NCBI RefSeq assembly: GCF_003634775.1
Contig: NZ_RBXB01000003.1
Span: forward strand, 248,001 to 312,000
Direction: 5' to 3'
Origin: Chryseobacterium defluvii
Lineage (GTDB): Bacteria > Bacteroidota > Bacteroidia > Flavobacteriales > Weeksellaceae
Length of the DNA: 64,000 bases
The notes under the pieces were generated by a model. The model was not told the origin of the DNA. It saw only the letters and a program-made list of their open reading frames with translations, and searched no databases. A program made the position numbers and the translations under genes. This document shows positions 7,507 to 39,275 of this stretch, one piece after another (positions within the stretch are counted from its first letter, which is position 1; each line of letters starts with the position of its first letter).

Positions 7507-10449
7507 TTATTTCAACTTCTTTTTAACGGCAACTTCTTCATAAACCTCTAAAATATCTCCTACTTCAATATCGTTATATCCTTTAAGGTTCAATCCACAT
7601 TCATACCCTTTTGTAACCTCTTTAACGTCATCTTTGAAACGTTTTAAGCTTTCCAATTCTCCATCAAATTTAACGATTCCGTCTCTCAACACTCTTACTT
7701 TAGAGTTTCTTGTCACTTTACCTGAAAGTACCATACAACCAGCAATTGTTCCTACCTTGGAAATCTTAAATACTTCTCTGATTTCAACATTACCGATTAC
7801 CTGTTCTTTAATTTCAGGAGAAAGCATTCCTTCCATTGCTTCTTTCACTTCTTCAATCGCTGCATAGATTACAGAATATGTTCTGATCTCGATTTCTTCT
7901 CTGTCTGCAAGATCTTTAGCATTGGCTCCAGCTCTTACATTAAATCCGATAATGATGGCATCAGACGCCGTTGCAAGGTTAACATCAGATTCGGTAATCT
8001 GACCAACTCCCTTATGAAGAATATTCACATTGATCTCTTCCGTAGATAATCTCTGCAACTGATCGGATAATGCTTCTACCGAACCATCCACGTCTCCTTT
8101 AAGGATAATATTCAGTTCTTTGAAATCACCCAAAGCAATTCTTCGTCCAAGCTCTTCAAGGGTTGTATGTTTTTTGGTTCTGATGGAAAGTTCTCTCTGA
8201 AGCTGCTCTCTTTTATTTGCAATGGTTTTAGCTTCACTTTCATCTTCATATACTTTAAACTTATCACCTGCTGTAGGAGCTCCATCCAATCCCAGAATAG
8301 TAACCGGAATTGAAGGTCCTGCTTCTTTAAGATTTCTACCTCTTTCATCAAGCATCGCTTTTACTTTACCATGGTTTTTACCGGCAAGAACATAATCTCC
8401 AACTCTTAAAGTTCCTGATTGAACAAGCATGGTTGATACATAGCCTCTTCCTTTATCTAAAGAAGCTTCAATAACAACACCCTGAGCATTTCTATTAGGA
8501 TTGGCTTTTAATTCCAATAATTCAGCCTGAAGCAATACTTTCTCTAATAAAAGATCAATATTATTACCAAACTTAGCAGAGATTTCCTGAGATTGAACAT
8601 TTCCACCCCACTCTTCCACCAAGATGTTCATTCCTGAAAGCTGCTGACGGATATTATCCGGATTCGCACTTGGTTTATCCACTTTATTCAGGGCAATGAT
8701 CATTGGTACACCTGCTGCCTGTGCGTGAGAAATAGCTTCTTTTGTCTGAGGCATTACATCATCATCTGCGGCAATAACAATAATAGCAATATCGGTAATC
8801 TGAGCACCTCTGGCTCTCATCGCTGTAAACGCTTCGTGACCCGGTGTATCTAAGAATGTAATTCTCTGACCGTTTTCAAGTTTTACGTTATAAGCACCGA
8901 TATGTTGGGTAATCCCTCCTGATTCACCCGCAATTACGTTGGTTTTTCTAATATAGTCGAGTAATGAAGTCTTCCCGTGATCCACGTGTCCCATTACCGT
9001 TACAATCGGAGCTCTTGGACGAAGGTCTTCCTCGCTGTCAATTTCATCTTCTGAGTCGGTTTCTTCAAGATCTGCATCAGAGAATTCAATTTTATATCCG
9101 AACTCGTCTGCTACTAATAGTAATGTATCAGCTTCTAGTCTCTGATTCATGGTAACCATAACTCCTAATGAGAAACAAGCAGAGATTACTTCAGTTGGTG
9201 ACACATTCATTAAGCTTGCCAGCTCGCCTACCGTAATAAACTCGGTAACCTTCAGAGTCCTGTCTTGCGCTTCAAGCTCTTGCTGACGCTCATCCTGTTC
9301 TCTACGGAAAGTTCGCTTATCTTTTCTATGTTTAGCAGATTTAGATTTACCTCCCTTATTGGTCAACTTTTCAAGGGTTTCCTTAATCTGGTTTTTAACC
9401 TGTTCATCTGTTAATTCAACAGGCATGACTCTTTGTCCGGGTCTGTTATTCTGACCTTTTTTGAATCCTCCGCCCTGGCCTTGACCTGGGGGACGATTTC
9501 CCTGATTGTTGTTTCCAAAACGGTTTCCACCCTGACCTCCTTGGCCTTGTGGACGATTTCCTTGTCCACCCTGACCTTGTGGTCTGTTTCCTTGATTCCC
9601 TCCCTGAGGACGGTTCCCTTGGCCACCGCCTTGGTTATTGTTTCCGGATTGCTGGTTATTCCCTTGGTTCTGTTGGTTAGGACCGGGCTTTTCAATCCTT
9701 TTTCTTTTCTTTTTAGCACCGGCAGAAGATCTGGATTTATCCGCAAATTGGGTTAAATCAATTTTTTCACCCACAATTTTTGGCCCGTCAAGCTTTTGAT
9801 AAACGGTTTCAATTTTTTGAGGTTCCTGTGGTTCTTCAGCTATCTGAGGTTCCTGTTTTGTTTCAACAGGCTTTGGCTCGGTTGCCACAACAGGTTTTGG
9901 GGCTTCTTTCACAGGCTCTTCAACCGGCTTTTGCTCCACTTTCTTTTCTTCCGCTGCTGGTTTTTCTTTTTTAGCAGGTCTGTTTCTGCTTTCTATCTGG
10001 GACAAATCAATTTTATCCAAAACTTTGAATTCCTGCTTTTCAGGGGTTGCAGGAGTAGGTTCAGGAGTCTTTACAGGTTCCTCTTTTTTCTCTTCCACTG
10101 CAGGAGCAGGAGCTTCTTCCGCTTCTGGTTTCTTATTTTCTAAATCTATTTTACCTAAAATTTTTGTTTCCGGTTTTATATTAGCTTTAGCTCTTATTAC
10201 TTCAGGGGTTTTCTTTTCTTCAATTTCCAGTTTTTCTTCCGGAACTTTAGTAATCACCACCTCATGGGAAGCCTTACGTTGTTCGCCATCCTTGGCAAAC
10301 TCAGCCTCCAATGCAGAATATGCCGCTTCTTCCAATTGAGCGTTAGGATTGCTTTCAACCTCAAAGCCCTTGGATTGTAAAAACTCTACTAATCTGGACA
10401 TCGAAATGTTGAATTCCTTGACCGCTTTATTTAATCTAATTTTTGGCAT
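7507..10449 (-). CDS. infB: Translation initiation factor IF-2
   Basis: 980 residues. GTPase that delivers initiator tRNA to the 30S subunit and promotes subunit joining. Visible: an N-terminal helical domain (1-52), a long disordered P/E/K-rich region in which a short motif recurs three times (KIDL at about 100-103, 147-150 and 229-232), a Q/G/N/R-rich low-complexity tract (about 255-340), an IF2_N domain (about 400-455), then the GTPase domain with G1 'GHVDHGKT' (487-494), 'DTPGHEAF' and 'NKVD', followed by the C-terminal domains. The length is normal for Bacteroidota IF-2. Last gene of rimP-nusA-infB. The repetitive tract produces spurious open frames on both strands. Confidence 0.98.
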
Positions 10450-29739: not shown

Positions 29740-30689
29740 TGATGGGCGGGCATTTAGAAATATCTGTTATCATACCGGTTTACAATGCTTCAGGATTTCT
29801 TGAGAGGGCAGTTCATTCCGCTTTACAATTCGGGGAAGTGAAAGAGGTGATTTTAATTGAAGATAAATCCACTGATGATTCTTTGGAAGTCTGCAACAGA
29901 CTGGTTTCAGAAAATTCAAGAGTAAAGCTTTATCAGCATCACGATAAAGAAAATCACGGAGCCGGAGCAACCAGGAATTTAGGATTAGAAAAAGCGAAAT
30001 ATGAATTTATCGCTTTTTTAGACTCCGATGATCATTATCTTCCGAACCGTTTTGACATGGAAAAAACGATATTCAATAATCCTAAAATCGAAGGTACTTT
30101 CGGAGCGATCGGGGTAGAATACTTATCGGAAAAGGGGAAAGAGGAATACCTTGCTAAATTTAATAATTCTACTCTGACTACCGTGAACTATCCGGCAGAG
30201 GGAGATGAAGTTTTCAAAGGATTGCTTGGTTTAACATCTAAAACTTTCGGGTCCTTTTTTCATTTAAATACTTTAACGGTCAGAAAATCTTCCATTATTA
30301 AAAATAACCTGCACTTTAATGAAAGTCTTCGGGTACATCAGGATTCTGATTTTATCATAAAGTTAGCTTATCATTGCTATTTAAAATCTGGAATCATAGA
30401 TCAAGCAATTGCTATAAGAGGTGTTCATGATAATAATAGAATTACAAAAATAGTAAGGTATTCAGCACAATACAATCAAAGACAGTTTCTTTTATGGAAG
30501 TCTTTGTATGATTGGGCTACTTCTCAGAACCTATCATCCGAGTACAAAAAGAAAGTTTATTTACAATACAGATCATTTGACTTATCTTTAAAAACAGGAT
30601 TAAATAAATATTCAAACATTGTAATCGAGGCTATTAAAAACCCTGAAATATTAAAAACAAAATATCGTTTCACCTATATGAACTCATGA
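29739..30689 (+). CDS. Glycosyltransferase family 2 (paralog A)
   Basis: 316 residues. 'ISVIIPVYNASGFLERAVHSAL', 'VILIEDKSTDDSLEVC', 'NHGAGATRNLGLEKAKYEFIAFLDSDDHYL' are standard GT2 motifs including the DSD metal site. The protein is strikingly similar to the gene at 31694, with long identical segments such as 'ALQFGEV', 'RVKLYQH' and 'LDQAVAVRGVH'-type matches near the end, so the two are duplicates flanking an acyltransferase gene. Its start codon overlaps the asnB stop (TAATG), indicating translational coupling. Confidence 0.88.
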   Translation: MMGGHLEISVIIPVYNASGFLERAVHSALQFGEVKEVILIEDKSTDDSLEVCNRLVSENSRVKLYQHHDKENHGAGATRNLGLEKAKYEFIAFLDSDDHYLPNRFDMEKTIFNNPKIEGTFGAIGVEYLSEKGKEEYLAKFNNSTLTTVNYPAEGDEVFKGLLGLTSKTFGSFFHLNTLTVRKSSIIKNNLHFNESLRVHQDSDFIIKLAYHCYLKSGIIDQAIAIRGVHDNNRITKIVRYSAQYNQRQFLLWKSLYDWATSQNLSSEYKKKVYLQYRSFDLSLKTGLNKYSNIVIEAIKNPEILKTKYRFTYMNS

Positions 30690-31687
30690 AGCTTAAAAAT
30701 TTACAAATATTAAGGGGGATCTCAGCATTGTTAGTATGTTTTTTTCATTTTAGGGAAAATCTCAATATCCCCGATTTAGAACTTGGTGAAATTTTATTCA
30801 GTAAAGGAAGTATTGGTGTTCCAATCTTCTTTGTTATTAGCGGGTTTATTATGGTTTTTACAACCAGAACAATAGATTTTACGGAAACTAATGTGGGTAA
30901 AGAAATTGTTATTTTTTTTAAGAAAAGGATAATCAGAGTAGTTCCTCTTTATTACCTGCTTACATTTGCATGGATTTTTATCGGTGGAAGTTTTTTTTAT
31001 TATTTTGAAGGAAAAGGTTTTTCCAGACTTTTACATTCCTTATTATTTTTACCTGAAAAAAATGTATTCCCTGTCGTTTACTTAGGATGGTCCCTCAATT
31101 ATGAAATGTTTTTTTATCTGGTCTTTGGCATTTCCCTATTTTTTAAAACTAAGAGATACTTTTTTATAATAACATTTTTTATAGCTACATATCTTTTGGG
31201 ATTGATTTTCAACCCCGAAAATGCTTATTTAGAAATGGTAACAAGTTATTTAAATTTGTATTTCGTGGTAGGAATTATCTATGGGCTCTTACTAGATAAA
31301 ATTCCTGTTTCCAAAAATATCGGAATAATAATTTCAAGCACCGGAATATTGTTATTCACACTTCTGATATTTAAGATCATACCTTCTGATAAAGAAATAC
31401 TTACACTATTTATCGTTTCTTTATTTGTGCTTTCTTTCTTGCTTTTTGATTATACATTTCATTGTAAAGGAAACCAATTCTTAGTTTTTTTAGGAGATAT
31501 ATCCTATTCACTATATCTTTCACATCCTTTCGTAGGAGTTCTGTTGAAAAGATTTCATGTTGATGGATATTTAAGTATTCCTTATTTCGCAGTTCAAATT
31601 GCCCTTGTTATTTTGGTAGCCACATTTCTTTATCATTTTATAGAGAAAAGAATGATTAATTATTTAAAATTAAAAAGCATAATTTGA
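30686..31687 (+). CDS. Acyltransferase family 3 (OafA/YrhL-like) membrane protein
   Basis: 333 residues with about ten hydrophobic segments. The family motifs are present: 'LQILRGISALLVCFFHF' with the catalytic-type histidine and 'GSIGVPIFFVISGFIMVF', and 'LGWSLNYEMFFYLVFGISLFF'. These proteins move acyl groups, usually acetyl from acetyl-CoA, onto extracytoplasmic polysaccharide. Overlaps the preceding gene by 4 nt (ATGA). By eye the gene is more AT-rich than its neighbours, and it splits two duplicated glycosyltransferase genes, which hints at a later insertion. Confidence 0.9.
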   Translation: MKLKNLQILRGISALLVCFFHFRENLNIPDLELGEILFSKGSIGVPIFFVISGFIMVFTTRTIDFTETNVGKEIVIFFKKRIIRVVPLYYLLTFAWIFIGGSFFYYFEGKGFSRLLHSLLFLPEKNVFPVVYLGWSLNYEMFFYLVFGISLFFKTKRYFFIITFFIATYLLGLIFNPENAYLEMVTSYLNLYFVVGIIYGLLLDKIPVSKNIGIIISSTGILLFTLLIFKIIPSDKEILTLFIVSLFVLSFLLFDYTFHCKGNQFLVFLGDISYSLYLSHPFVGVLLKRFHVDGYLSIPYFAVQIALVILVATFLYHFIEKRMINYLKLKSII

Positions 31688-31693
31688 TAAAAA

Positions 31694-32635
31694 ATGAAAG
31701 TTTCAGTAATTGTTCCTGTTTATAATGCCGAAAAATATGTTGCCCAGGCTGTAGAATCTGCATTGCAATTCGGGGAAGTTCATGAAGTTATCTTAGTAGA
31801 AGATAAATCTCCCGATAATGCACTGCAGGTTTGTAAAGAACTGGCAGCAAAGTATAACAGGGTAAAACTTTACCAGCATCCCGATAAAGGAAATCATGGG
31901 GCCGGACCAACAAGAAATCTGGGAATCGAAAAATCTACAGGGGATTTTATTGCTTTTCTGGATGCAGATGATTATTATCTTCCCAATAGATTCGATGCAG
32001 AAAAAGAGCTTTTCAAAAATCCCAAGGTAGAAGGTGTGTATGGCGCTCTGGGCGTTCATTATTATTCCGAAAAGGCAAAAGAGCAGTATTATGAGTTGTT
32101 CCAAGACCGTCTTACCACAGTTTACAAAAAACATGACCCTAAAGACGTTTTTCCCGGCCAGATGAATATGCTGGGAAGCTTCGGATTATTCAGCATTGAT
32201 ACTCTAACAATCAGGAAAGAGCCATTGATGCGTAAAGTTACGCCTCTGTTTAAAAAAAGCTTAAGGCTTCATCAGGATACAGAATTTTTGTTCCGCTTAT
32301 CCTATTATCTCGATCTTTATCCGGGTATTTTAGATCAAGCTGTAGCTGTAAGAGGTGTCCATGAAGATAATAGAATCACACAAGTGGATTCAAAAAAGGT
32401 GAAACCTTCTACCACAAGAGTTTTACTATGGAAAGAAGTGAACCAGTGGGCCAAAAATGAAAGTACCATTCCTGCACACATCAAACTTCATATCACTAGA
32501 ATGCACAGAAGTTTTGAGATTGCTAATGCGCCTGTATTGAAAAAATGGGGTATGATTTTGAAATATCTGGTGACGGATTATCCGAGTATTCGTTCAGGGC
32601 TCTATAATATTAATTTCAGAAAATATTTATTTTAA
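31694..32635 (+). CDS. Glycosyltransferase family 2 (paralog B)
   Basis: 313 residues. 'VSVIVPVYNAEKYVAQAVESAL', 'VILVEDKSPDNALQVC', 'NHGAGPTRNLGIEKSTGDFIAFLDADDYYL' are GT2 motifs with a DAD metal site. Paralog of the gene at 29739. It ends in a convergent overlap with the minus-strand SGNH gene: the two stop codons share bases 32632-32635, so no terminator separates the two transcription units. Confidence 0.9.
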   Translation: MKVSVIVPVYNAEKYVAQAVESALQFGEVHEVILVEDKSPDNALQVCKELAAKYNRVKLYQHPDKGNHGAGPTRNLGIEKSTGDFIAFLDADDYYLPNRFDAEKELFKNPKVEGVYGALGVHYYSEKAKEQYYELFQDRLTTVYKKHDPKDVFPGQMNMLGSFGLFSIDTLTIRKEPLMRKVTPLFKKSLRLHQDTEFLFRLSYYLDLYPGILDQAVAVRGVHEDNRITQVDSKKVKPSTTRVLLWKEVNQWAKNESTIPAHIKLHITRMHRSFEIANAPVLKKWGMILKYLVTDYPSIRSGLYNINFRKYLF

Positions 32636-33552
32636 TTTTTTCTACTCGCCAGAATAGAATCTGCAATCTGAGCCGTAAATACTTTTCCTGATTCTTTATA
32701 CATGTGATTGCCGTCTGTATACATATATTCATCGGCTTTGGATGAAAAATCAAAGAAAACAACACCATGTTTTTTAGAGATCTGATTTATTTTCTCGCTG
32801 AAATCCGGTGAGTAAGATCTTTCTATATCCATTATTTTTTGCGAGGCGGGAATTCTTACAAGATAAACGCTTCCTTTGGTCTTCAAATATTCGATAATAT
32901 CTTTTAAAGCGTTAATTCTATCCTGAGATATCTTTTGGCTTCTGACAAAATCCGTATATTCCTTTATCTTTTTCTCCTCTCTTTTGGCAATTGTATCTGG
33001 ATGTGTGTTTACGGTAACTTCCATCCAGCCGTTTTTATGAACGTATGTATTAGATTTGGCTGTTTCTTCCCTATCCTTATAGATATTAAACCAGCTTCTC
33101 GGATAGTTCTTTATAAGATATTCGTAATTAGGATCCAGGTCATAAAAATGCATATTCGCTAAAGCGGATTTGTTTTCATAAAAATCTTCTTCGTTTTTTA
33201 TATTTTTATCTGCCGATAAGTTCCAGGGATCCACCGTTAAAATAAAAATTCCGCCTTTTGTATCGGGATCTAATTTTTTCTTTATAGCTTCAAAATATAC
33301 TTTTCCATAAGGAGACTCCGTAATATTAAAAGCAAAATTATTAAACTTCCTGTTTCCCAATTTGCCATCCAAAATATCCGGGACAACCGCCTGGACTCCT
33401 CTGGAATCTCCTAAAATCATATTGGACGGTTTTGGACCAGTAAAATGCCTGTAATTATCATCCGTATTTCCATCCGCATAAGTTCCCAGAAAGAATAGTA
33501 CCGCCACGATCCCGATAATATAAAGTGATATTTTAAATAAGAATTTTTTCAT
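32632..33552 (-). CDS. SGNH-hydrolase-like membrane-anchored protein paired with MBOAT
   Basis: 306 residues. An N-terminal hydrophobic anchor (about 5-24) is followed by an extracytoplasmic domain with block I 'MILGDSRG' (S50) and a C-terminal 'DGNHM' giving D280 and H283, the two ends of an SGNH catalytic triad. Proteins of this kind (DltD, AlgJ/AlgX) work with an MBOAT partner in acyl transfer to extracellular polymers. The ATG at 33552, one base after the MBOAT stop, is preferred over an ATG at 33567 or a TTG further upstream. Last gene of the FkbH-ACP module. Confidence 0.75.
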   Translation of the reverse strand: MKKFLFKISLYIIGIVAVLFFLGTYADGNTDDNYRHFTGPKPSNMILGDSRGVQAVVPDILDGKLGNRKFNNFAFNITESPYGKVYFEAIKKKLDPDTKGGIFILTVDPWNLSADKNIKNEEDFYENKSALANMHFYDLDPNYEYLIKNYPRSWFNIYKDREETAKSNTYVHKNGWMEVTVNTHPDTIAKREEKKIKEYTDFVRSQKISQDRINALKDIIEYLKTKGSVYLVRIPASQKIMDIERSYSPDFSEKINQISKKHGVVFFDFSSKADEYMYTDGNHMYKESGKVFTAQIADSILASRKN

Positions 33553-33553
33553 A

Positions 33554-34966
33554 TCAGAATTGTTCATAGATGAAATTACCGTTACCAAACACTCCGAAAT
33601 ACATGATCATGAAAATAAGACAGATATAAACAGTTCTTCTTATAAAAGGATGATATCTGCTGATCTCAAGACCGTGCTCCTGATCTTTATTTAACCAGTC
33701 AATCACAATCAGAATCCCTATTAATCCTAAAATTTTCATTTTTATGAATAGCGGAACCGAAAAAAGCGAAAGGCTGAATATTCTTGCATACATGCCAAAA
33801 GCATCCGTAAGAGTAGGAGCTACAAATAATACAAAAGCAAAGCATACCATGATCATGGTAAGCAGAATATTTCCGAGTTCCTGAAAAGTAGGAATCGGCT
33901 TGGAGATTTTTTTCTTTTTATTCAGTTTATCTTTCAGGATCAACGGGATATAATAAACCCCATGAAGCAACCCAAAAAAAATGAATGTAAATCTGGCTCC
34001 ATGCCATGCTCCGATCAGAACAAAGTTTAAAATAATAGCGGCAATCAATCCTTTCTTTCCATAATCTCTAAACTCAATTATTAAAGGCGTAAATACATAT
34101 TCAGTTAACCAGGAAGTCAATGAAATATGCCATTTTCTCCAGAATTCGGCAATATTTTGAGCAAAAAGCGGAAATGCAAAGTTTTTGGTTGTTTTAAATC
34201 CCAACAGTTTAGCAAATCCAATGGCCATATCAGAATATCCAGAAAAATCTGCATAGATTTCAAACAGGAAAAGTACAAGCCCAAAAGCTACCGTACTTCC
34301 TGAAAGATGATCATAATTATGGAAAATATCCTGAGTAATGGGCGTTATGCTATTGGCAACCACCAATTTTTTAAATACTCCCAAAAGGATTTGCCTCGCC
34401 GCATCAGAACCATTTTCTAAGGTGAAGATTCTTTCTTTTTTTAGCTGTGGAAGCAATAAACCGCCTTTATCAATGGGGCCGGAAGTCATGCTCGGGAAGA
34501 AAGCGACATAATTAAAGAAAACCAAAACATCTGTCTCAGGCTTCAGTTTTTTATTCTTGATATCAAGAAAATAGCTTAATATTCTAAAGGTATAAAAGCT
34601 GATACCAAGTGGTAAAATTATCGATAAAGTGAGTGTGTTTTTTATATTAAAAAGATCCGCAAAAGAATCTATAAAGAAATTGAAGTATTTAAAATAAAAA
34701 AGGGTCCCGATTGCTAAAATTAAACCTAGATTCAAGAAAATCCGTTTCTTTTTTCCCTCGTTTTCACCAATTTTTATTCCTAAAAAATAAGCCATTGCAG
34801 AAGTACCGATGAGCAAAGCCAAAAATCTCCAGTCCCAGTATGCGTAAAAAATATAGCTTGCCAACAGCAATACTATATTCTGTAGCTTCAGATTCTTTTG
34901 GGATAACCAATAAAGTCCGAAAACAATGGCAAAGAAAAGTATAAAAGCAATTGAGGTAAACTGCAT
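33554..34966 (-). CDS. MBOAT family O-acyltransferase (AlgI/DltB-like)
   Basis: 470-residue polytopic membrane protein. Family signatures: 'LLPLGISFYTFRILSYFLDI'-type segment (IILPLGISFYTF), 'FWRKWHISLTSWLTEYVF' (residues about 270-290) and the conserved histidine in 'GAWHGARFTFIFFGLLHG'. MBOATs of this branch transfer an acyl group from a cytoplasmic donor through the membrane to an extracytoplasmic acceptor; the DltB member takes acyl units from a carrier protein, a precedent for use of the ACP encoded upstream. ATG at 34966 is chosen over a TTG one codon earlier. Followed one base later by the SGNH gene. Confidence 0.92.
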   Translation of the reverse strand: MQFTSIAFILFFAIVFGLYWLSQKNLKLQNIVLLLASYIFYAYWDWRFLALLIGTSAMAYFLGIKIGENEGKKKRIFLNLGLILAIGTLFYFKYFNFFIDSFADLFNIKNTLTLSIILPLGISFYTFRILSYFLDIKNKKLKPETDVLVFFNYVAFFPSMTSGPIDKGGLLLPQLKKERIFTLENGSDAARQILLGVFKKLVVANSITPITQDIFHNYDHLSGSTVAFGLVLFLFEIYADFSGYSDMAIGFAKLLGFKTTKNFAFPLFAQNIAEFWRKWHISLTSWLTEYVFTPLIIEFRDYGKKGLIAAIILNFVLIGAWHGARFTFIFFGLLHGVYYIPLILKDKLNKKKKISKPIPTFQELGNILLTMIMVCFAFVLFVAPTLTDAFGMYARIFSLSLFSVPLFIKMKILGLIGILIVIDWLNKDQEHGLEISRYHPFIRRTVYICLIFMIMYFGVFGNGNFIYEQF

Positions 34967-34983
34967 CAATCTTTATTTAAATA

Positions 34984-35697
34984 TTAATAATGGGAAGCGT
35001 CCAGGAAAATATGATTCCCGTTAAAATGCTTTCCTCCGTTGATGCAAAGATCTATTACATTCGAAATGTCTTTGCTTTCAAGGTTATCTTTTAAAGGATA
35101 GCCCGCAAGTATGGTTTCCTTCACCCTTTCATCCATATTCTTGTGGAAGTCTGTAGGAATAAAAGAGGGCGAAACAGAGTTACAGGTTATGCCGAATTTC
35201 ACATTTTCTATTGCCCAGCTTTTACTCATCTGAAGCAAATAAGCTTTATTGGAATTATACACAGAAGTTCCCATTGCAGGAGAATTAAGGGATGATGAAA
35301 GGATATTGATGATTCTTCCCAGTTTTTTCTTACGGAACAGGTTAATGCATTCCTGGGTAACCTGTAATGTAGGCATCACATTATTCTTAAAATCATTCAG
35401 GAATTTTTCAGCTTCTGTTTTATGGAAATAAGTATCAATAAAAGTCCCGTTATAATAATTATTGATGAGAATATCCGGATCAAAAGCTCTGATTTCAGCA
35501 CAAAAAGCTTTCATTTGATCAGCAGACGTAAAATCTATCTGAAATGCTTTGGCATTCATAAATTGTGCCTCTATTTCTTTTGCCGATTCTGCGGAATGGC
35601 AATAAGTAAATAATACCTCATACCCTTTTTCAAGTAGAAATACATTGATCTCTTTACCAATTCCGGATGAACCTCCGGTTAAAACCACTTTATTCAC
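34984..35697 (-). CDS. SDR-family reductase (FabG-like) of the ACP module
   Basis: 237 residues. 'VVLTGGSSGIGKE' (cofactor loop TGxxxGIG, residues 4-15), 'LINNYYNGTF', 'INILSSSLNSPAMGTSVYNSNKAYL' with catalytic serine and YxxxK. It matches classical 3-ketoacyl-ACP reductase-type SDRs. The GTG start overlaps the stop codon of the dehydratase gene (GTGA), so the two are coupled. Its place between dehydratase and MBOAT genes suggests reduction of a keto-acyl group bound to the local ACP; a sugar substrate is the alternative. Confidence 0.88.
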   Translation of the reverse strand: MNKVVLTGGSSGIGKEINVFLLEKGYEVLFTYCHSAESAKEIEAQFMNAKAFQIDFTSADQMKAFCAEIRAFDPDILINNYYNGTFIDTYFHKTEAEKFLNDFKNNVMPTLQVTQECINLFRKKKLGRIINILSSSLNSPAMGTSVYNSNKAYLLQMSKSWAIENVKFGITCNSVSPSFIPTDFHKNMDERVKETILAGYPLKDNLESKDISNVIDLCINGGKHFNGNHIFLDASHY

Positions 35698-36092
35698 GTT
35701 AGTTCTTTTATTTGAATTTTTCCGGCAGCAACGGTTTTACGTTCTGCATTCATAAAATTAAACTTAAAAGTATTTACCTGCACTGCTTCGGATTGTTCAT
35801 CAACAACAGCCTCAAAGTTTAAAACATCATGCAGGTATACCGGCCTTTTAAAATTGATTGTTTGCGAAAGGATCATCACCTCTTCTGTAGGTAAAAGCTC
35901 ACCAATAAAGTAAGAGAGAAAACCGTTCAGTATATTTCCGTGCATTACTTTTGCTTTAAAACCTTTGTTTTGAGCAAATTCATCATCAATGTGCAAAGAA
36001 TTCCGGTCGTTAAAAACAGTAATGAATCCGTTATAGATATTCTCATCAACTTTAAATTGATGTTGAAATACCTGATTGAGCTGAAGCACCAT
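35694..36092 (-). CDS. MaoC-type hot-dog dehydratase/hydratase
   Basis: 132 residues. The hydratase motif is visible: D29, N31 and H34 in 'FNDRNSLHIDDEFA' (compare family G-D-x-N-P-L-H), followed by 'GFKAKVMHGNILNGFLSYFIG' and 'FKRPVYLHDVL'. These enzymes add or remove water at C2-C3 of acyl thioesters. Lying 6 nt after the acyl carrier protein gene and overlapping the reductase gene, it probably acts on a beta-hydroxyacyl-ACP. Confidence 0.88.
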   Translation of the reverse strand: MVLQLNQVFQHQFKVDENIYNGFITVFNDRNSLHIDDEFAQNKGFKAKVMHGNILNGFLSYFIGELLPTEEVMILSQTINFKRPVYLHDVLNFEAVVDEQSEAVQVNTFKFNFMNAERKTVAAGKIQIKELT

Positions 36093-36098
36093 TATTTA

Positions 36099-36335
36099 TT
36101 ATTTTGCTACAATACAATCTATCATTTCCCCAACATTCTGCCAGCTCTGAATTTCTGAGGAAGTAAAACGTACTCCAAAAGCTTTTTCTACTGCCACAAT
36201 TAACTGGATGTGAGAAAGGGAATCCCATTCTTCAATATCTTCTGCCGTAGTTTCAAAGTTCAGAACTATATGCTCGTTATCCAATTCTTCGTGAAAAATA
36301 GTTGTCAGCTTCGCTAAAATTTCATTTTTATCCAT
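36099..36335 (-). CDS. Dedicated acyl carrier protein
   Basis: 78 residues, acidic, four-helix type. The phosphopantetheine attachment site is S39 in 'EEWDSLSHIQLI' (the canonical DSL). It carries acyl intermediates as thioesters. It is not the housekeeping fatty-acid ACP, as there are no fab genes around. It lies 8 nt after the FkbH-like gene, the usual partner that loads such carriers, and just before a dehydratase and reductase. Confidence 0.93.
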   Translation of the reverse strand: MDKNEILAKLTTIFHEELDNEHIVLNFETTAEDIEEWDSLSHIQLIVAVEKAFGVRFTSSEIQSWQNVGEMIDCIVAK

Positions 36336-36343
36336 AATGTCGT

Positions 36344-38068
36344 TTATTTACTAATGATATATACTTTTTGGGATTGATAGTCATCAACATTCAGAATCCA
36401 TTTTTCATTCTGTTCTACAAATCCTAGTTTTTCATAATGGTCTTTTACCATCTGGTTTTTTGCTGTTGGAATATATTCCCCAACAATATATTTATAATTA
36501 TGTTTTTTTGCCGTTTCTATAATAGTATTCAGCGTAAAGTCTTCCATTCCTCTTTTTAAAACCCGGCAGCTCATCAGCCATGTATCAATGAAAAGTGTCT
36601 GGTTATCTTTTTTCTCTAAAACAATGACCGCAATCAGTCCGTTATCTCCATATTTATCTTCCAAAGTAAAAGAAATGGTGTAATGACGATCTGAATTCAT
36701 CAGATATTCAATTTCCTGTTCCGTATATCTTACAGTCCTTAGATTAAACTGATTGGAACGTTGTGTCAGCTGAGAAATTCTTGGTTTTGAAAAATGGCTG
36801 AATGGCTGGACATCGGAAACCATATTCATGCTTTTAAGAAAATCTTCCACATTGGTAAAGTTTTCCAAAGCAATAGCTCTCTGTGCTTCCACCTGATACT
36901 GTTTTGTTCTTTCCGTATCGTTCTCAGAGAAACTGGTCGTTTCAAAAAGGTTAAGGCTGTATAGGTATTCCAGATAATGAGCAGGATCTTCGGGTAATTC
37001 CGGTACACAAACTTCGGGAAGGTTCTCACGGACAATATTTCTTTCGAATGGATTATCATCCAGAAACACCATTGAATCAAACCCTATATTTAAAATGCTT
37101 TGAATTTTCCTGATATTATCCACTTTGTTTTCCCAATTGGCAACAAAAACTGCAATATCCTCCAGTTTCAGCACCATATCGGGATGCTTTTCAAAAGGTT
37201 CTTTGGCCTTATCTTCATCATTTTTACTGCAAACAGCCAGTATCACGCCTCTTTTCTGTAGGGCTTTTACCCAATACTGGAATTCTGTAAATGCTTTTCC
37301 TATCCCTAAATTCCCTATTTGAATTTTCTCTAATCCATCATCTCCAATGATCCCACCCCATGTGGTATTATCCAGGTCTAAGATAAGGCACTTTTTGAAT
37401 TTTCCTTCCAAGGAAGAAATAATACTGAAAATATGATGGGCAACTATAGGCAATGCATCAATCGATAATACCATTTCAGTATTTACATAGATGCTAGGAG
37501 AAAACATGAAGTCTCTTCCCCATTTGTTCTGAATGGAAACTAAATCGGCAATGAAGAAATTGTCTTTTCCAATAGCCAATTGGGAAGATAGCAGGTAATT
37601 AAGTTTATGTTGCTGGAAAACGAAAGATGATTCTACTTTATTAGAAAAATTACCAAAAACCTGATCACTGATTCCGGGAAAATTACAATAGATGACTCTG
37701 CTTTTTATTCTGCTTTGAATGGTATTATATAACTTTTCTATAAAACCGATTTTATCTTCTGCAAAGTTGACCGGAGAATCATGGCTTTTATAAAACTGGC
37801 TTAATAACTTATGTGAAGATTCAAAAATTATAGTATAATCGGGATCAAATTCGTAATATTCCGAGCTAGGATCCAGAATCTGGCGGGAAATCTGTCCAAA
37901 ATCCGCTTCAAAAATTTCAAGATTGAATCCATTATAAAGAGCTGTTCCCTTTAAGGCTATATTCAAAAACTGAGTAGCGGTATCTCCTAATAAAGCAACT
38001 TTTATCTTTTTTAGCTGATGGGAATTTTGATTATTTTTTTTCTTTAACTCTGAAAACGTTTTATACAT
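36344..38068 (-). CDS. FkbH-like HAD-IIIC family protein (glyceryl-ACP loading type)
   Basis: 574 residues. An N-terminal domain (about 20-215) of SGNH-like fold type ('KVALLGDTATQFL') precedes the HAD domain with motif I DLDNT (231-235, 'DLDNTTWGG'), motif II CSKND (280-284) and motif III DDNP (337-340, 'DDNPFER'). A GNAT-like C-terminal region follows ('YGDNGLIAVIVLEKK'). Characterised FkbH enzymes take the glyceryl group from 1,3-bisphosphoglycerate and load it on an ACP. All HAD residues are intact here and an ACP gene is next to it, so that reaction is a sound inference. Many FkbH-like proteins in polysaccharide loci remain uncharacterised. Confidence 0.88.
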   Translation of the reverse strand: MYKTFSELKKKNNQNSHQLKKIKVALLGDTATQFLNIALKGTALYNGFNLEIFEADFGQISRQILDPSSEYYEFDPDYTIIFESSHKLLSQFYKSHDSPVNFAEDKIGFIEKLYNTIQSRIKSRVIYCNFPGISDQVFGNFSNKVESSFVFQQHKLNYLLSSQLAIGKDNFFIADLVSIQNKWGRDFMFSPSIYVNTEMVLSIDALPIVAHHIFSIISSLEGKFKKCLILDLDNTTWGGIIGDDGLEKIQIGNLGIGKAFTEFQYWVKALQKRGVILAVCSKNDEDKAKEPFEKHPDMVLKLEDIAVFVANWENKVDNIRKIQSILNIGFDSMVFLDDNPFERNIVRENLPEVCVPELPEDPAHYLEYLYSLNLFETTSFSENDTERTKQYQVEAQRAIALENFTNVEDFLKSMNMVSDVQPFSHFSKPRISQLTQRSNQFNLRTVRYTEQEIEYLMNSDRHYTISFTLEDKYGDNGLIAVIVLEKKDNQTLFIDTWLMSCRVLKRGMEDFTLNTIIETAKKHNYKYIVGEYIPTAKNQMVKDHYEKLGFVEQNEKWILNVDDYQSQKVYIISK

Positions 38069-38107: not shown

Positions 38108-38115
38108 CAAATCTA
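38108..38115 (-). promoter_or_regulatory. -7 promoter element of the FkbH-ACP module
   Basis: On the minus strand TAGATTTG, matching TAnnTTTG, 39 nt upstream of the FkbH-like ATG in a 181-bp gap. A TTG 14 nt further upstream is closer than usual spacing. It suggests that the six-gene module can be transcribed independently of the genes before it. Confidence 0.4.
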
Positions 38116-38249: not shown

Positions 38250-39275
38250 TCAAGTTTTAACACTTTTCAAATAATCTCTCAGGGGCTTTTCCACAAATTG
38301 ATAAAGTAAAGTGGAAACGATAAGCAAAATGACCATATACAAACAGAAAACCATATCTATATCGAGAAGTATATGCTTTTGTTTTAAAATTTCCCTTATG
38401 ATGTACAGAACCGGAATATGCACAATATAAATAGCATAGCTTATTTCACCCAGATATTCCAAAGGTTTTAAAGAGAAAAGTTTTGTAAGCACTCCGTTAT
38501 TATAAGAGGTCAGAACAATCAACGGGATAAAAAGCACCGCCATAAGACCATTATGGAAATTAAGAGGAACAAATATAAGGGCCAGTAACACTACCATAAA
38601 AATGGCAATAACCGGGAAATCATAATTTTTTTGTTTAAAATGCTTCACAAAAAATATTCCGGCTAAGTTCCCAACCAAAAATTCATTGAGATGCAACAGT
38701 GGAAAATAAAACCCAAATTCATGACTTTTGGTATGAGGTCCTTCATACCACGAAGAGCTCACATAAAAATTGGAAAAAACCTGAGTAACTATCCAAATGA
38801 TAATCGCAATCACCCAAATGCTTTTATTCTGTTTGGAATAATAGCGATTATATAAGAAAGGAAACAGAAAATAAAAAAGAAATTCTACAGAAATAGACCA
38901 ACCCGGAAAATTCAGGACCAAAGCTTCTCCCGGAAACCAGCTTTGCATTCCCAATAAGTATAAGATCAGTTTGTATACACTACAATTAGAATACTTGGTA
39001 ATGAGATACAATAATAATCCGACAATATACAAGGGATAAATCCTGGCCAACCTGTTCCTGTAATAGTCTGCATAATCGATGCTGTTTTTTTTATGATAGG
39101 CCACAATCATAATGAATCCCGAAAGAATAAAAAAGTAGCTTACCCCTACATTCGCCCGCAGGAAAATATCTGAAATATAGTCGGTATGATATAAAAATAA
39201 GTCTTTGTTAAAATGTGAAATGACAATGGCAATGGCCGCCACAAATCTGGTAAAGGTAATCTGACTTATTTTCAC
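38250..39275 (-). CDS. Acyltransferase family 3 (OafA/YrhL-like) membrane protein
   Basis: 341 residues, polytopic. 'ITFTRFVAAIAIVISHFNKD' with the family histidine, 'ANVGVSYFFILSGFIMIVAY', 'NFPGWSISVEFLFYFLFPFLY' and 'LEYLGEISYAIYIVHIPVLY' are typical. It probably O-acetylates or otherwise acylates the surface polysaccharide. The start codon is GTG at 39275; no in-frame ATG lies upstream before a stop. It is 20 nt after the methyltransferase gene, and is followed by a 181-bp gap before the FkbH module on the same strand. Confidence 0.9.
   Translation of the reverse strand: MKISQITFTRFVAAIAIVISHFNKDLFLYHTDYISDIFLRANVGVSYFFILSGFIMIVAYHKKNSIDYADYYRNRLARIYPLYIVGLLLYLITKYSNCSVYKLILYLLGMQSWFPGEALVLNFPGWSISVEFLFYFLFPFLYNRYYSKQNKSIWVIAIIIWIVTQVFSNFYVSSSWYEGPHTKSHEFGFYFPLLHLNEFLVGNLAGIFFVKHFKQKNYDFPVIAIFMVVLLALIFVPLNFHNGLMAVLFIPLIVLTSYNNGVLTKLFSLKPLEYLGEISYAIYIVHIPVLYIIREILKQKHILLDIDMVFCLYMVILLIVSTLLYQFVEKPLRDYLKSVKT

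Follow-up and report, generated by a model that had tools for sequence, protein, structure and literature searches.

What acyl group would be made by an operon that joins an FkbH-type enzyme and a carrier protein to a membrane acyltransferase, and where would that group be placed? The question is raised by a 64,000-nucleotide stretch of the Chryseobacterium defluvii genome (hereafter the window; RefSeq assembly GCF_003634775.1, contig NZ_RBXB01000003.1, positions 248,001 to 312,000), in which six consecutive open reading frames (ORFs) occupy the minus strand at 32632-38068. They encode, in order, FkbH, an acyl carrier protein (ACP), MaoC, a short-chain dehydrogenase/reductase (SDR), a membrane-bound O-acyltransferase (MBOAT) and an SGNH protein. 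On balance we favour the view that this operon is an ACP-dependent system that decorates a cell-surface glycan with lactyl groups. An earlier reading made from the letters of the window (the sequence-only reading) had described six tightly packed minus-strand genes, and all six ORFs were found where it placed them, with intergenic distances of -4 to +17 nt:

36344-38068, minus strand: FkbH-type glyceryl transferase/phosphatase, 574 aa, with FkbH_N, HAD-IIIC and a GNAT-like C-terminus
36099-36335, minus strand: acyl carrier protein, 78 aa, PP-binding 31.8 bits, serine S39 in the DSL motif
35694-36092, minus strand: MaoC/PhaJ-type hot-dog dehydratase, 132 aa, MaoC_dehydratas 41.9 bits, D29/N31/H34
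34984-35697, minus strand: classical FabG-like SDR, 237 aa, GTG start, Y147/K151
33554-34966, minus strand: DltB-like MBOAT, 470 aa, H280 and H322
32632-33552, minus strand: periplasmic SGNH-type protein with an N-terminal membrane helix, 306 aa from the ATG at 33552, S50/D280/H283

The first five proteins were recognised by family models, and the catalytic motifs to which the sequence-only reading had pointed (HAD motifs in FkbH, DSL in the ACP, D/N/H in MaoC, YxxxK in the SDR, S/D/H in the SGNH protein) are intact. FkbH matched FkbH_N (PF21211) with 233.7 bits and TIGR01686 with 310.4 bits, above the curated cut-off of 146.65, and it combines these domains with the HAD aspartates D231/D233, kept in 50/50 relatives, and with a conserved cysteine of the CSKN motif (C280, 49/50), which we take to be the residue that carries glyceryl. 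Its sole solved relative, PDB 3slr (B. fragilis BF1531, 515 bits), is titled 'uncharacterized protein'. The D29/N31/H34 residues of MaoC form the D-x-N-x-x-H signature of R-specific hydratases and are kept in 24/24 SDR-paired MaoC proteins; the PDB relatives are the R-specific enoyl-CoA hydratases 5cpg and 1iq6. The best matches of the SDR were 3-oxoacyl-ACP reductase models and, among structures, those of FabG.

At the other end of the operon, the MBOAT scored 53.4 bits with Pfam MBOAT and 157.9 bits with the DltB model TIGR04091, under its cut-off of 375, and is thus DltB-like rather than DltB; it matched the DltB structures 8jem (4e-27) and 6bug (5e-27), and its active-site histidine H322 is invariant in 49/49 relatives. 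The SGNH protein was matched weakly by family models (DUF1574, 23.8 bits against a cut-off of 29.1), and its S50/D280/H283 residues show no variation in 25 aligned sequences. A Foldseek search with its AlphaFold model (mean predicted local distance difference test score 72.7) returned PatB and GDSL esterases, with DltD lower in the list. An MBOAT with an invariant histidine is thus followed by a membrane-anchored SGNH protein, the make-up of an export pair, and the SGNH gene trails the MBOAT gene in most of the loci.

The sequence-only reading had proposed a genome search for the six-gene order as a check, and it was run across genus and class samples, with a MaoC profile search over 148 Chryseobacterium genomes, a 395-genome sample of the class and, for FkbH, a sample of the family. 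This MaoC was found in 15 of the 148 Chryseobacterium genomes, and the complete six-gene order in all 15. Three Kaistella genomes have the identical gene order, but their MBOAT (46-48% identical to that of the window) and SGNH proteins (about 31%) belong to another lineage. In the class sample, five more families are represented by strong MaoC matches (G483, G670, G544, G625 and G774), which have FkbH, ACP and SDR genes adjoining and an MBOAT in the cluster. Together, 23 of 24 loci with this MaoC-SDR pair have it beside FkbH-ACP and also contain an MBOAT gene, and because the parts are kept together in this way, the six-gene order is under selection. A dehydratase and a ketoreductase with intact catalytic residues stand beside FkbH and ACP, as a conversion of glyceryl-ACP to lactyl-ACP would require. 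One locus (L122) has a gene for a 441-aa multi-helix membrane protein (8134-9459) inserted between FkbH and ACP. Some short or unrelated ORFs had been labelled 'SDR' or 'ACP' automatically (for example, a 180-aa 'ACP'); these labels were spurious and were ignored. A Subdoligranulum plasmid (OY725877) with an FkbH (37%) and MaoC-SDR-like matches downstream has no intact MaoC or SDR frame and was not used. In Sinorhizobium meliloti pSymB, an FkbH gene lies near an MBOAT gene (28-39% identity), which we record as a lead only.

The genes between the two ends can be exchanged. In the family sample, 15 genomes have a close relative of FkbH (at least 73% identical): six have MaoC-SDR, five (G040, G227, G436, G440 and G320) a bare FkbH-ACP-MBOAT-SGNH set, and four (G292, G426, G442 and G316) a methyltransferase in the cassette slot, accompanied in three of the four by a VOC (Glyoxalase_4) protein. 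This alternative cassette (loci L038, L039 and L040 in G292, G426 and G442, L045 in G316, and L148 and L158) comprises a 301-aa methyltransferase, joined in most cases by a 126-aa VOC/Glyoxalase_4 protein, and is predicted to yield methylated glyceryl-ACP. Because FkbH-ACP-MBOAT-SGNH occurs without MaoC-SDR, or with methyltransferase/VOC genes, MaoC-SDR is best seen as an optional step on what FkbH loads, and the comparison of loci indicates a one-way dependence of MaoC-SDR on FkbH. The ACPs differ with the cassette: the C-terminal GEMIDC is present in 18/18 MaoC-SDR modules, there is a serine in that place in 8/8 other ACPs, and the ACPs of MaoC-SDR modules are a subtype of their own.

Other variants were seen in the same samples. 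In G694 (L105:5645-11348), the order is FkbH-methyltransferase-ACP-MaoC-MBOAT-SGNH, with a MaoC paralogue that has lost the catalytic D29 and N31 and with no SDR; this degenerate MaoC occupies the slot held by the VOC protein in other modules. A second MBOAT-SGNH pair, absent from the window, lies upstream of FkbH in L008, L055, L112, L115, L117 and L118. In the C. defluvii locus L008, three MBOATs follow one another and ACP/MBOAT/SGNH sets stand side by side in more than one copy, yet there is a single FkbH, as if one glyceryl supply served more than one decoration. Clusters of another kind in the same family (L053:4442-9340 and the similar L049, L051 and L052) combine an approximately 40% identical FkbH type with a VOC protein, ACPs, ketosynthase III, a PglD-like hexapeptide acyltransferase and an SDR, and probably supply a sugar with a chain-extended N-acyl group.

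If the cassette determines the group made, the parts that handle that group should follow it. A cassette label (MaoC-SDR, methyltransferase or none) was assigned to 27 Weeksellaceae modules, and the number of label changes on each gene tree was compared with 500 shuffles. The FkbH tree had eight label changes (shuffle mean 8.5; 212/500 shuffles as low) and showed no association. By comparison, there were three changes on the ACP tree (26 modules; shuffle mean 7.7; 0/500 as low), four on the MBOAT tree (8.5; 0/500) and five on the SGNH tree (8.5; 1/500). The trees suggest that FkbH is a generic front end, with ACP, MBOAT and SGNH travelling with the group made, a pattern to be expected if FkbH loads a single shared unit and the remaining genes deal with the different groups derived from it. 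That the six genes form one module, as the sequence-only reading had proposed, with FkbH and ACP as its core, MaoC and the SDR acting after FkbH and MBOAT-SGNH as its transfer end, is well supported by the 23 ordered loci, the swappable middle genes and the cassette-tracking MBOATs. Relatives swap the middle genes, so the attached group would change with them. We would put at about even the broader proposal that Bacteroidia hold an exchangeable surface-acylation platform, in which a constant FkbH loads glyceryl and interchangeable cassettes (nothing; MaoC plus SDR; a methyltransferase with or without a VOC protein), with matching ACP, MBOAT and SGNH, would deliver glyceryl, lactyl or methylated glyceryl.

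The chemistry that we propose follows from characterised relatives. FkbH enzymes load glyceryl from 1,3-bisphosphoglycerate onto a carrier with removal of the phosphate (PMC8949500; PMC7489565). In the biosynthesis of FR901464 and lankacidin, dehydratase-ketoreductase (DH-KR) proteins convert glyceryl-S-ACP into lactyl-S-ACP (PMC4765723, citing He et al. 2014; PMC6162330). In the Dlt system, the carrier protein DltC hands the acyl group to DltB at the cytoplasmic face (PMC11035591). By analogy, FkbH would take glyceryl from 1,3-bisphosphoglycerate, remove the phosphate and put glyceryl on the holo-ACP; MaoC would then remove water, giving pyruvyl-ACP in its enol form; and reduction of the resulting alpha-keto thioester by the FabG-like SDR would give lactyl-ACP. 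The ACP would next dock on the DltB-like MBOAT from the cytoplasm, the MBOAT would move lactyl across the membrane, and the SGNH protein would help to place it as an ester on a hydroxyl of the surface glycan. The most probable acceptor is the polysaccharide of the surrounding locus, which is a guess, as is the stereochemistry of the lactyl group. The sequence-only reading had drawn the same glyceryl, enol/pyruvyl and lactyl scheme without citing the DH-KR proteins; the scheme is plausible, and they give its overall conversion a biochemical precedent. What stood of its interpretation was the module, the placement of MaoC-SDR after FkbH and the MBOAT-SGNH transfer end; the lactyl group and the polysaccharide acceptor are its more tentative parts. 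Because the conversion of glyceryl-ACP to lactyl-ACP has published precedent, O-lactylation through a Dlt/Pat-like MBOAT-SGNH pair is favoured here. Bryostatin, a further candidate for a lactyl precedent, was not confirmed in the literature searched and was not relied on.

Several observations weigh against this proposal. MaoC and FabG-like SDR proteins are normally 3-hydroxyacyl and 3-oxoacyl enzymes, and acting on glyceryl and an alpha-keto thioester would need an altered specificity that is not visible in the sequences. In G013, the sole exception among the 24 loci, MaoC-SDR faces MBOAT-SGNH, with FkbH-ACP on a separate contig. MaoC-SDR fusion proteins adjoin FkbH-type and ACP genes in G163, G541, G663 and G519 (loci L011, L108, L110 and L111), but three of the four FkbH-like proteins beside them have no CSKN cysteine (A, A and N in its place), so these clusters add little weight and may make another product. 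Physical linkage could partly explain why ACP, cassette and MBOAT are inherited together, yet FkbH lies equally close and does not follow. Finally, the modules of G227, G436 and G544 (loci L041, L042 and L102) lie among housekeeping genes, so a local polysaccharide need not be the target.

This last point bears on the alternative that survives best, namely that a lactyl-type ACP is made but its group goes to a different acceptor, which could be a glycolipid, a lipoprotein glycan or some other surface glycan. It is also in line with the lipid-anchored polymer on which DltB works (PMC11035591) and with G483, in which the ACP of an FkbH-MaoC-SDR-MBOAT module is fused to a cytoplasmic hexapeptide (LbH) acyltransferase (L100:7075-7956). 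We nevertheless consider it less probable than a locally made acceptor, as the 15 Chryseobacterium MaoC-SDR modules share one position in a glycosyltransferase-rich locus. In the window, the module is surrounded by genes for a UDP-sugar dehydrogenase, a sugar dehydratase, a nucleotidyltransferase, an ABC-2 permease with its ATPase, FdtA, DegT and hexapeptide proteins and many glycosyltransferases, which bears out the polysaccharide setting that the sequence-only reading had seen.

It is unlikely, in our estimate, that the group is derived from glyceryl without being lactyl, for instance because pyruvyl- or enolpyruvyl-ACP is the form transferred, because the SDR oxidises one of the glyceryl hydroxyls or because C2 is inverted. 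The comparative evidence on the six genes would fit any FkbH-derived C3 group. However, MaoC proteins with intact catalytic residues always have a keto-reductase-type SDR partner, and the oxidising enzymes of the methoxymalonyl pathways are dehydrogenases of other families. Those pathways do oxidise, rather than dehydrate, glyceryl-ACP (PMC7489565), but the sole characterised dehydratase-reductase route from glyceryl-ACP that we found ends at lactyl-ACP.

The main alternative of the sequence-only reading was a short 3-hydroxyacyl group supplied with the help of the fatty-acid enzymes of the host. Such a group, for instance 3-hydroxybutyryl, loaded on this ACP with FkbH in a side role, now seems improbable: MaoC and the SDR fall in the R-hydratase and FabG families, 3-hydroxybutyryl is known on bacterial polysaccharides (PMC9912281) and related ketosynthase-bearing clusters exist (L108 and L053), but these clusters carry a different FkbH type (33-41% identical), the six-gene module has no ketosynthase, as that reading had noted, and the idea is disfavoured because MaoC-SDR, in nearly all its loci beside an FkbH that is itself widespread without it, depends on FkbH and not vice versa.

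Two further acyltransferase genes flank the module, outside the six genes:

38250-39275, minus strand: AT3 (OafA-like) acyltransferase, the upstream neighbour
30686-31687, plus strand: AT3 (OafA-like) acyltransferase, on the other flank

The upstream AT3 gene is found in many relatives, not in all, and with two AT3 genes at its flanks the polysaccharide probably bears additional acyl groups. The module had also been credited with a -7 element of its own, for which the candidate is:

38108-38115, minus strand: TAGATTTG, a possible, weak Bacteroidota -7 box about 40 nt upstream of fkbH

This claim did not hold up. The motif TANNTTTG occurs at chance level in the window (79 observed, 85 expected), a box at the same position upstream of fkbH was found in none of the relatives, and a search for the pattern TTTG-N19-TANNTTTG gave no match in front of fkbH.

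If true, the platform would be, to our knowledge, the first case of carrier-protein-dependent O-lactylation of a surface glycan. It would join the glyceryl/lactyl-ACP chemistry of polyketide starters to Dlt/Pat-type MBOAT export and would decorate the surface directly from glycolysis. Glyceryl loading is suggested as a function for the orphan structure 3slr. Three distinct substituents are predicted from gene content alone, which offers a way to examine the acyl-group choice of MBOATs, and the exchange of tailoring cassettes among close relatives would be a simple route to varied surface antigens or phage receptors. Lactyl is a known but rare substituent of bacterial glycans; the cases in the part available of PMC9912281 are amide- or ether-linked, so an ester-linked lactyl made by this module would be new.

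The sequence-only reading was aware of no published system made up in just this way, which agrees with our literature searches, although each half has a described relative. No FkbH example in polysaccharide decoration was found in these searches, whose coverage is without most subscription journals. The small acyl group held as a thioester on a small carrier, the DltB-like MBOAT and the extracytoplasmic SGNH protein, all in one operon, resemble the Dlt system (DltA-DltB-DltC-DltD) of teichoic acid D-alanylation. A DltA D-alanine:carrier ligase was found neither among the six genes nor among their immediate neighbours; in contrast to Dlt, the carrier would be charged here by FkbH, with a glycolytic phosphate as the source and an acyl group that is no amino acid, and the host is Gram-negative. 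The succession of an MBOAT and an SGNH protein is shared with the O-acetylation systems PatA-PatB and AlgI-AlgJ/AlgX, and the predicted fold of the SGNH protein is nearest to PatB among the named acyltransferases. These systems transfer acetyl, and their operons are not known to include a carrier protein of their own or genes that make the acyl group.

The methoxymalonyl and tetronate modules likewise use FkbH with a free-standing ACP, and neighbouring enzymes tailor the glyceryl-ACP. Unlike here, the tailoring is oxidation/methylation or FabH condensation, and the product enters polyketides (PMC7489565); 3-hydroxyacyl-CoA dehydrogenase, acyl-CoA dehydrogenase and O-methyltransferase genes, as expected for a methoxymalonyl-ACP module, are absent from the operon, the methyltransferase variant being found in relatives. 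The closest parallel to the proposed chemistry is the lactyl-ACP starter of FR901464 and lankacidin, for which 1,3-bisphosphoglycerate likewise leads through glyceryl-ACP to lactyl-ACP (He et al. 2014, PMID 25160004, as reported in PMC4765723 and PMC6162330). There the enzyme is a bifunctional DH-KR and here separate MaoC and SDR proteins would do the work, a likeness drawn from the described activity; and there lactyl primes a polyketide chain, whereas here, with no ketosynthase, it would be passed on to a membrane acyltransferase.

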